In this document: positions 5,110-7,786 of the stretch, in pieces
Layout of the letters: every line of letters starts with the position of its first letter
Numbering within the stretch: position 1 is the stretch's first letter
Source of the DNA: Methanobacteriota archaeon
GTDB lineage: Archaea; Halobacteriota; Methanomicrobia; Methanomicrobiales; Methanomicrobiaceae
DNA: 64,000 bases
Reading direction: 5' to 3'
NCBI GenBank assembly: GCA_016841485.1
Contig: JAENZA010000004.1
Location: 1-64,000 of the forward strand
Program-made: the position numbers and the translations under genes
The notes under the pieces: model-generated
What the model saw: the letters and a program-made list of their open reading frames with translations, nothing else
Databases searched by the model: none
What the model was told of the DNA's origin: nothing

Positions 5110-5475
5110 CGTATATTCCTCCCTGCATGCCTATTTTCCGCATAGTACGACTTATCAGTTTTGCGCACCATCTAGATCAAATCTGCGATCGGTAATATGC
5201 TCTCATGCCTGTTCATGCGAATGGGTGAAGAAAATTACCTGCAATGCGAAGGTGCCGTCGGGTCCTTTGGTACGGATGGGTTTGAGGCGCCGGGTCACCG
5301 TAAAGAATGCTTTATTTCACATCGATACGATACAGTATGAAAAAGTGCAGGGGCTCAGGAGACACCAATTTACTCCCTCTCCACGGGTCAAACCTGCAAC
5401 ATACATCCCTGGAAGAATTGAAGAATACTTCATTGTTTTCGGGTGCCCGGCGCACCCGTATCCCCGCTGATATCC
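5110..5475. other. Divergent spacer upstream of dphB and the cis-prenyltransferase homologue
   Basis: About 365 bases separate the divergent starts. The plus-strand ORF at 5096-5470 shows no family and overlaps the dphB start, so I treat it as non-coding. The only promoter-like site for the plus gene is weak (GCTTTATTTCACATCG, about 5309-5324). No clear RNA gene or repeat. Confidence 0.4.
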
Positions 5476-6069
5476 ATGTTGAAGAAATTCTATGAACGCA
5501 GGCTGGCTCAGTCCCTGGAAGAGATCCCCCGGAACGTGTGTTTTATGGTCAGCGAAGAGGAGGTCCTGAATGCTCCCGGAAAGATCGTTGATCTTGCCCG
5601 TTGGAGTAAGGAATTGGGTATTGCCACACTCATCATTCATATCCGGACCACCTCTGCCCGAAACGTTCAGACGATTCTTCCGGAACTGAGACGACTGGCA
5701 TCCCTGGCACGGGTGGAAATTCATTCCCGGGGTGGAAGCGAGCAATTCGGAAGCGGAGATTTGCAGATTCTCATTGCCATCGACATGTCGGGAAAAGATG
5801 AAATTGCCGCTGCCATCCGCTCCATGGCAGAAGAGGGAATATCCCCCGGGGAAGTCGATGAAGAACTCTTCCGCTCATATCTTACCATCAGGACCGAACC
5901 GGATCTTGTCATCAAGACCGGCGGTGACCAGCTGACCGACTTTTTAATCTGGCAGTCCGTCTATTCGGAACTCTTCTTTACGGACATAAACTGGGATACG
6001 TTCAGGAAAGTGGATTTTTTGAGGGCTCTGAGGGATTATCAGATACGGGTGCGCCGCTTTGGCAGGTGA
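5476..6069 (+). CDS. Divergent cis-prenyltransferase homologue lacking the catalytic N-terminus (probable accessory subunit)
   Basis: A 197-residue protein. Its last 60 residues match the C-terminal half of undecaprenyl/dehydrodolichyl diphosphate synthases: EPDLVIKTGGDQLTDFLIWQ (residues 141-160), then SVYSELFFTDINWDTFRKVDFLRALRDYQ. It ends VRRFGR, keeping the C-terminal RxG motif. The N-terminal half has no MDGNxR catalytic loop and no TFSxEN motif, and the Arg of IRTG is Lys. This is the layout of the non-catalytic NgBR/Nus1-type subunit of heteromeric cis-prenyltransferases. The catalytic homologue lies tail to tail next door with a 31-base overlap. I start at MLKKFYERR; an upstream GTG is possible. 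Confidence 0.8.
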   Translation: MLKKFYERRLAQSLEEIPRNVCFMVSEEEVLNAPGKIVDLARWSKELGIATLIIHIRTTSARNVQTILPELRRLASLARVEIHSRGGSEQFGSGDLQILIAIDMSGKDEIAAAIRSMAEEGISPGEVDEELFRSYLTIRTEPDLVIKTGGDQLTDFLIWQSVYSELFFTDINWDTFRKVDFLRALRDYQIRVRRFGR

Positions 6070-6827
6070 TGAAGCCGCACCCGGTCGTTATAGACCCGGA
6101 TGCCCCGGAGAAGATCGATCTTTCTGAAGAGCGGCCAATAGGGGGCACAAAAGAATACCGCGGATTCGTACCCGTTTGCAAGCCAAGGCAGGAAGTTTGA
6201 GGTCCTCTTTTCATTCCCCGTACGGATGATCAGATCGACTGGTGCAAGATGCGTATCTCCGCAGATCTTCTCCTCAACCAGGCGCGGGGTAATCTCCTCT
6301 GCCCGGATGCGTCCTTCCCGTTCATCTTGGAGTATGCCTTGTGCACTCCTGATGATCTCATTTCGTCCCCCGTAGGCAAGCGCAATATTGAGATAGAACT
6401 GATCATAGTGCTGCGTGGCATGTTCCGCATCCTCAATGGTCTTCAACAGATGTTCCGGTATCCGACTGCGATCGCCTACGATCTGGAGGCAGATCCGGTT
6501 CCTGTGGAACCGGTCATCGTCACGGACGGAACTGAATTTTTTGATGAATAATGAGAAGAGTTCTTCCAGCTCCTCTTCCGGACGGTTGAAATTTTCCGTG
6601 GAGAAGGTGTAGAGGGTGATGGTGCGAACCCCGAGTTCCCGTGCCCATTCGAGCACATCTTCGGTCGTCCTGGCACCCATGGAGTGGCCGAATGCGGTCT
6701 TCTTTCCCAGGCTGGAGGCATATCGGCGGTTTCCGTCCATGATGATGGCGATATGGCCGGGCACATGCTGTATCGTCTGTTTCAGGTGCCACTCGTAGAT
6801 TTTTTCGGGGATCACACGAATCTTCAT
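6039..6827 (-). CDS. uppS: cis-prenyltransferase, catalytic subunit (polyprenyl/dolichyl diphosphate synthase)
   Basis: A 262-residue member of the UppS/DHDDS family, which extends an allylic diphosphate with IPP in the cis configuration to make the glycosyl carrier lipid for protein glycosylation and envelope sugars. Catalytic Asp31 lies in IIMDGNRRYASSLGK; other motifs are TLYTFSTENFNRP, LNIALAYGGRNEI and DLIIRTGNEKRTSNFLPW. Its C-terminus (RLHHLPKRRTRI) lacks the RxG motif that completes the active site in homomeric enzymes, whereas the neighbouring truncated homologue has it. The start overlaps the radical SAM stop by four bases, so it belongs to the lysS-radical SAM-uppS operon. Confidence 0.93.
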   Translation of the reverse strand: MKIRVIPEKIYEWHLKQTIQHVPGHIAIIMDGNRRYASSLGKKTAFGHSMGARTTEDVLEWARELGVRTITLYTFSTENFNRPEEELEELFSLFIKKFSSVRDDDRFHRNRICLQIVGDRSRIPEHLLKTIEDAEHATQHYDQFYLNIALAYGGRNEIIRSAQGILQDEREGRIRAEEITPRLVEEKICGDTHLAPVDLIIRTGNEKRTSNFLPWLANGYESAVFFCAPYWPLFRKIDLLRGIRVYNDRVRLHHLPKRRTRI

Positions 6828-7786
6828 ACCGGGATGACCTCGACAATCATGCCCTTGTTGGGATATCGTTCCACCACGTATTTTTTTCCGGGATGATCCT
6901 TAAAGCAGTCTGTCAGGACCCACCATGCCATCTCCACCCGTCCGTCGATAACTTCCATTATCTCCGGGTCGATATCTGGAACATCTTCACCACATTCCAG
7001 TACGCCGTAGATGATTGTGCCGTCCTCGGTGATCTCTTCAAAGGTCCGTGCGGTATTTGCAGCGATCCGTTTCAGGCGCTCCCTGAGCTGGATTGAGTCT
7101 TTAAATGTTGAGGTGCACCAGTGCACCTTCTCATGCCGGCGGATCGTACGCGTCCACTCTTCCGCCCCGCCCACAGCATTGTGGTAGCAGTCCTCCAGGT
7201 CGAAGCCCCGTAGCCGCATTTCGTGGGCATTGGTCTCGCTCCATTCAAGTTCGTTGATATTGAAGAAGTTCAGGTCATCCAGCAGAGGTTCAAATGCTTC
7301 GATTCCCGGAAGAGAGGGGACTTCAATGGTTACCTCCATGCCCAGTTCCTTTGCTTTTCGTATCTGTGCGGGAAACCTGCTCTCCATGATCTGGGGCCAG
7401 ATTTCATGGGGCGGGTGGAACCGGATCTCATCAACCAGGCCGACAAGGGCTTCGAGTTTGGCATCGTCCGGTGCGATACCCGTATACATATGGATGTGGT
7501 GGTCGTCTCCGAAGGTATCCTTGAGAAGACGGCAGTAATGTACGATCCGGTCGGGAACAAGGAATGGTTCCCCGCCGGTGATGCCGGTCCCGAGCGCACT
7601 CATGATGCGTGCTTCCTCCAGAAGATCCTCATCACACCGGATTTCCCGGTCATTGGCATAGGCGGTGTCTTTTCCCTTCCGCTCACTCGATATCGGGCAA
7701 TACCAGCAGGTGCGGTTGCATCTCCCGGTAATAAAAAGGACCATCTTGGCCCCCTTGTGGCAGAGTCTGCAGGCCTTACTCAGCAC
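6824..7786 (-). CDS. Radical SAM protein of unknown substrate
   Basis: A 320-residue radical SAM enzyme. The iron-sulfur motif is TGRCNRTCWYCPISS (CxxxCxxC) near residues 20-34, and the SAM-binding GGEP motif is GTGITGGEPFLVP near 68. A strand segment DEIRFHPPHEIWPQI follows. There is no C-terminal SPASM-type cysteine cluster; three scattered cysteines occur (DLEDCYHN, HWCTST, LECGED). The substrate is unknown. It lies between lysS and the catalytic cis-prenyltransferase, overlapping both (11 and 4 bases), so the three are co-transcribed. A lipid-related reaction would be speculation from context alone. Confidence 0.85.
   Translation of the reverse strand: MLSKACRLCHKGAKMVLFITGRCNRTCWYCPISSERKGKDTAYANDREIRCDEDLLEEARIMSALGTGITGGEPFLVPDRIVHYCRLLKDTFGDDHHIHMYTGIAPDDAKLEALVGLVDEIRFHPPHEIWPQIMESRFPAQIRKAKELGMEVTIEVPSLPGIEAFEPLLDDLNFFNINELEWSETNAHEMRLRGFDLEDCYHNAVGGAEEWTRTIRRHEKVHWCTSTFKDSIQLRERLKRIAANTARTFEEITEDGTIIYGVLECGEDVPDIDPEIMEVIDGRVEMAWWVLTDCFKDHPGKKYVVERYPNKGMIVEVIPV

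Follow-up and report, generated by a model that had tools for sequence, protein, structure and literature searches.

A heteromeric cis-prenyltransferase (cPT) is very likely the product of two genes, one per subunit, that lie tail to tail at positions 5476–6827 of the window (the whole 64,000-nucleotide stretch of DNA that was analyzed). This enzyme would make the long polyprenyl diphosphate used for a glycosyl carrier lipid in protein glycosylation. The sequence-based support for this assignment consists of a partition of motifs between the two proteins, a predicted whole cPT fold in the accessory (non-catalytic) subunit, phylum-wide co-occurrence of the two genes, the finding of no other cPT gene in the source genome, and a conserved convergent linkage. 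From these features, we infer that the proteins form a complex, that both are needed for activity, and which product and pathway they serve. In the following paragraphs, we describe the two subunits, their distribution and their gene order, and compare them with known systems.

The catalytic subunit (262 aa) is encoded on the minus strand (6827–6039). It matches PF01255 over nearly the entire model in a Pfam search (218.5 bits, model columns 1–216 of 219) and TIGR00055 (uppS) with 231.5 bits, above the cut-off of 109.55. AlphaFold2 returned a standard cPT prediction (pLDDT 88.6), with TM-scores of ~0.8 against UppS and DHDDS, and the best PDB match of the family profile is human DHDDS (E 4e-70), with E. 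coli UppS close behind (7e-68). All catalytic motifs named in the initial annotation are intact: MDGNRRY, which contains Asp31 (6720–6740), TFSTEN (6591–6608) and IRTGN (6213–6227), all on the minus strand. Across 44 sequences of the family, D31, G32, N33, R34 and R35 are invariant, as are S76, N79 and R202, and F75, E78, T203 and G204 are conserved in at least 90%. The annotation had also found that this protein has no C-terminal RxG, which is borne out by its C-terminal tail, ...RVRLHHLPKRRTRI, where the motif is absent. In one f9 genome, the catalytic match (G228:C1:187421–188161, plus strand) carries one in-frame TGA, which may reflect a pseudogene, a sequencing error or recoding.

Next upstream of the catalytic gene lies a radical SAM gene (6824–7786, minus strand; PF04055, 35.7 bits), which shares 4 bases with the beginning of the catalytic gene; the two are presumably co-transcribed. 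The same neighbor was observed in most Methanomicrobiales loci with enough flanking sequence and in one f7 genome. The radical SAM protein has no assigned function and may be a partner in modifying polyprenyl compounds or lipids.

The accessory subunit is encoded on the plus strand (5476–6069) and has 197 aa when read from the ATG at 5476; an upstream GTG at 5443 is a possible alternative start, and homologues begin at the position of 5476. The PF01255 match is confined to the C-terminal half of that model, with 90.8 bits over columns 111–219 of 219, and the motifs MDGNRR, FSTEN and RTGxExR were not found in the protein. The initial annotation had concluded that the whole catalytic N-terminus is missing, which proved incorrect: the N-terminal ~90 residues are present, in divergent and shortened form, and align over the full length with both the catalytic subunit and NUS1. 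In an hhalign comparison with the catalytic family, the accessory family aligned along its entire length (E 4e-43, 207 columns), with VSEEEV at the position of MDGNRRY, FSTEN lost, and the catalytic R-T-G-N-E-K-R-T-S-N-F replaced by K-T-G-G-D-Q-L-T-D-F. AlphaFold2 predicted one compact alpha/beta domain with the whole cPT fold (mean pLDDT 89.9), and a Foldseek search with this model returned cPT structures, among them the human complex. The accessory subunit is thus predicted to be a complete compact cPT fold, comparable to NgBR/Nus1. Because it aligns over its full length, has lost the catalytic motifs and retains the whole predicted fold, we classify it as a catalytically dead pseudoenzyme paralogue. 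The earlier description of a "split" enzyme made of "two halves" is therefore unsupported, since both proteins are predicted as whole cPT folds.

The C-terminus of the accessory subunit reads ...RVRRFGR, and the RRFGR ending noted initially was confirmed, with the RxG (R194-F195-G196) encoded at 6055–6063 on the plus strand. The accessory family profile matches human NUS1 over its full length (17–207, E 2.6e-11). Bacterial cPTs score higher than NUS1, so the match supports homology to NUS1 but does not establish specific orthology. The accessory protein of family f15 was considered as an especially NgBR-like case and rejected, as NUS1 was not among its PDB matches. NgBR and Nus1 have an N-terminal membrane-anchored region ahead of the cPT-like domain; such an anchor is absent from the 197-aa archaeal protein, which begins at the domain itself (MLKKFYERRLAQSLEEIPRNVCFMV). 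As a side observation, a record titled Lachnospiraceae bacterium (a horse faeces MAG; L232, 2613–3191) encodes an accessory subunit of the Methanomicrobiales type and is most likely a mis-binned archaeal contig.

The RxG motif is distributed between the subunits in a uniform manner. Each C-terminal tail was anchored on the preceding conserved helix and scored for R[R/K]xG in the canonical register, which was found in all 168 anchored accessory proteins and in none of the 149 anchored catalytic proteins, counted as distinct sequences and not as independent events. A looser string search for R-x-G near the C-terminus returned 13 of 160 catalytic tails, none of them canonical when put in register. 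What had been proposed from this locus as a move of the RxG from the catalytic to the accessory subunit thereby becomes a fixed partition across the phylum, which supports, at the level of sequence, an obligate heteromer in which the accessory subunit would lend its RxG. Because RxG and the catalytic motifs are so consistently divided, the RxG-lending model can be put to a direct test. The RXG paper is reportedly that of Grabinska et al. 2017.

The two genes are the only PF01255 genes found in the source genome (91.5% complete); given this completeness, a third cPT could be missing from the assembly. PF01255 matches are present in 192 of 199 Methanomicrobiales genomes, nearly all of which have exactly two, and the accessory profile matches 191 of the 199. 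In the phylum sample, the accessory and catalytic profiles match 191 and 190 of 197 genomes, respectively. Since nearly all sampled genomes, in the order as well as in the phylum, contain both genes, their pairing is far beyond chance. The catalytic/non-catalytic pair put forward initially accordingly holds, resting on the motif partition and on a second PF01255 protein without catalytic residues. A mirror-tree analysis gave a partial correlation of 0.46 for the catalytic and accessory subunits versus 0.50 for the control pair of catalytic subunit and radical SAM protein, and hence did not set the two subunits apart from the control. The f15 and f20 genomes, which show weak matches to the accessory profile, were candidates for lacking the accessory gene; this was rejected, as they contain a second, divergent PF01255 gene ending in RRFG. 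In all five sampled f12 genomes (G204, G213, G222, G231 and G238; 75–91% complete), no PF01255 match was found, STT3 had no match in four of the five, and DUF92 was present in all. This lineage has possibly lost N-glycosylation along with the carrier lipid synthase.

The active site of cPTs is formed mostly by one protomer, and the C-terminal RxG of the partner reaches the IPP diphosphate. In the proposed heteromer, the minus-strand subunit would bind the allylic primer, IPP and Mg and catalyze chain elongation, the plus-strand pseudoenzyme would stand in for the partner protomer of an ordinary cPT dimer, and its C-terminal RxG would be inserted into the active site of the catalytic subunit. 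The product would probably be a C45–55 polyprenyl diphosphate for the glycosyl carrier lipid. The source genome contains genes for the STT3 oligosaccharyltransferase and for a DUF92 protein. The plant DUF92 member VTE6 is a phytyl-phosphate kinase, and the presence of DUF92 in this genome and as a neighbor of the pair elsewhere in the phylum provides a circumstantial fit to polyprenyl-phosphate metabolism; a literature search on DUF92 found nothing useful.

The tail-to-tail order seen in the window is conserved across Methanomicrobiales and extends beyond them. Among the matches listed, 133 of the 141 Methanomicrobiales genomes in which both genes were placed have the convergent order, three have the genes linked in another orientation, and five have them on different contigs. 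In other families, again among the matches listed, the order is convergent in 37 genomes (36 plus the f20 genome) with different flanking genes, linked otherwise in two, and unlinked or on different contigs in about 51; all of these gene-position counts cover samples of genomes. The pair is unlinked in families f8 (which we take to be Methanosarcina-like), f9, f10, f14 and f22. Elsewhere the two genes are separated by insertions: a DNA methylase gene and two others in an f11 genome, and ResB together with genes for cytochrome c assembly in an f7 genome. The pair is flanked by radical SAM and Dph5 genes in Methanomicrobiales, and outside this order the start of a gene for a DUF92 membrane protein lies next to the accessory gene. 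Toprim-like genes flank the pair in several members of a group of families that we presume to be haloarchaea (f13, f17, f21, f23, f27 and f29), and the catalytic gene is preceded by lysS in several groups, with this gene as the shared flank in some. In several lineages other than Methanomicrobiales, the accessory gene lies head to head with a gene for a ~420-aa protein whose C-terminal part is a DUF92 domain (L256, 7186–8511; L259, 6389–7645; L260, 6926–8191; L261, 4600–5895; L262, 9836–11131).

The distribution of convergent linkage over 55 genomes, mapped on a tree built from both subunits, requires 7 state changes; all 500 shuffles needed more (mean 17.7). Convergent linkage is therefore clustered on the tree, occurring in three large clades and in the f20 outgroup. 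The convergent order looks old and ancestral, with several losses, under a rooting that is unsure and rests on long-branched rows. It is quite possible, if short of probable, that the order has no function and was simply inherited, perhaps after arising by an inverted duplication, and preserved because rearrangement is slow; this would concern the gene order only and leave the enzyme assignment untouched. The clustering on the tree is what such inheritance would produce. However, the pair stays together while most of its other neighbors change (radical SAM/Dph5, DUF92 or Toprim-like genes, with lysS shared in some), and inserted genes are tolerated, yet the pair remains close and convergent. 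We consider it rather doubtful, although conceivable, that the convergent order is itself under selection, for instance through a coupling of subunit amounts by tail-to-tail transcription or through close linkage that keeps co-adapted partners together. If so, it would be a rare example in which a conserved convergent pair, and not an operon, holds the subunits of an enzyme. A literature search found no published account of this conserved order, with Emi et al. 2019 and Grabinska et al. 2017 outside its reach, and nothing useful on conserved convergent pairs in general.

The genes overlap at their 3' ends by 31 bases, and the coordinates of this overlap (6039–6069), which includes the RxG codons, were confirmed. 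The same length recurs in the related loci L074, L184, L236, L239 and L240, and most other loci have no overlap. Where overlaps exist, they measure 31, 27, 20 or 13 bases depending on the group, with 27 recurring in Methanocalculus, and stop-to-stop spacing across the loci, some of which are duplicates, ranges from overlap to several kilobases. The conserved feature is therefore the convergent linkage, and the overlap was rejected as such a feature; we regard the 31 bases as a local accident of compaction. The initial annotation had attributed functional meaning to the overlap, with antisense regulation balancing the subunits. This proposal is unsupported, because the overlap is lineage-specific and missing from most loci, and because many lineages have the genes unlinked or, in some cases, whole genes between them. 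A functional overlap, in which antisense transcription or read-through past the stops would keep the two subunits in balance, is accordingly very unlikely: the 31-base overlap common to several related loci, the 27-base overlaps in Methanocalculus and the wide conservation of the convergent order speak for it, and against it stand the kilobase spacings, the methylase or cytochrome-assembly genes inserted in f11 and f7, the unlinked pairs of five families, and a catalytic tail whose length and reading phase within the overlap vary from group to group.

It is still more improbable that the catalytic protein acts as a homodimer without RxG, with its plus-strand counterpart a duplicate that is decaying or moonlighting. 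The catalytic protein does have all catalytic motifs, and human DHDDS without NgBR keeps a low activity, with a ~500-fold lower kcat (PMC6921004). The archaeal catalytic subunit might thus work weakly alone, a point that also counts against the heteromer reading. However, the accessory protein is retained throughout the phylum sample and its C-terminal residues are invariant, and RxG occurs in every anchored accessory and in no anchored catalytic protein, which argues against a decaying gene.

The heteromeric cPT proposed here has its closest counterpart, and its experimental precedent, in Methanosarcina mazei, in which MM_0618 and MM_1083 are reported to form a heteromeric cPT with C45–50 products (Emi et al. 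2019, cited in PMC8131916). The initial statement that heteromeric archaeal enzymes are known from Methanosarcina is thus documented; a literature search found no paper besides PMC8131916 that names this pair as a heteromer. The M. mazei enzyme resembles the present pair in being archaeal and in combining two PF01255 paralogues into one enzyme for a glycosyl carrier lipid, and related genes are present in the sampled f8 genomes of presumed Methanosarcina-like type. The two systems differ in gene order, as widely separated locus numbers in M. mazei and unlinked genes in f8 contrast with the adjacent, convergent and overlapping genes in the window. In addition, M. mazei has a third cPT, MM_0014, and no third was found in the source genome (91% complete).

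Similarly, human DHDDS/NgBR (PDB 6z1n, 6w2l) and yeast Rer2/Nus1 combine a catalytic subunit lacking a C-terminal RxG with a dead paralogue that supplies it. Unlike NgBR and Nus1, the archaeal accessory subunit has no N-terminal membrane anchor, and its C-terminal half (KTGGxLTDFLIWQSVYSE) is closer to bacterial cPTs. The homodimeric UppS of E. coli and B. subtilis shares the fold and motifs of the catalytic subunit and the RRFG end of the accessory subunit, but in UppS every protomer has RxG as well as the catalytic motifs, which here reside on two proteins. Small archaeal subunits without an obvious membrane anchor could be expressed and their structures solved. The archaeal heteromeric cPT was already known and the present pair adds a member; less expected is the long-lived convergent order, which offers a clean case for asking why subunits stay tail to tail. 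Taken together, the heteromeric cPT, familiar from the human DHDDS/NgBR disease genes and from rubber synthesis, apparently extends from one studied methanogen to a phylum-wide archaeal rule.
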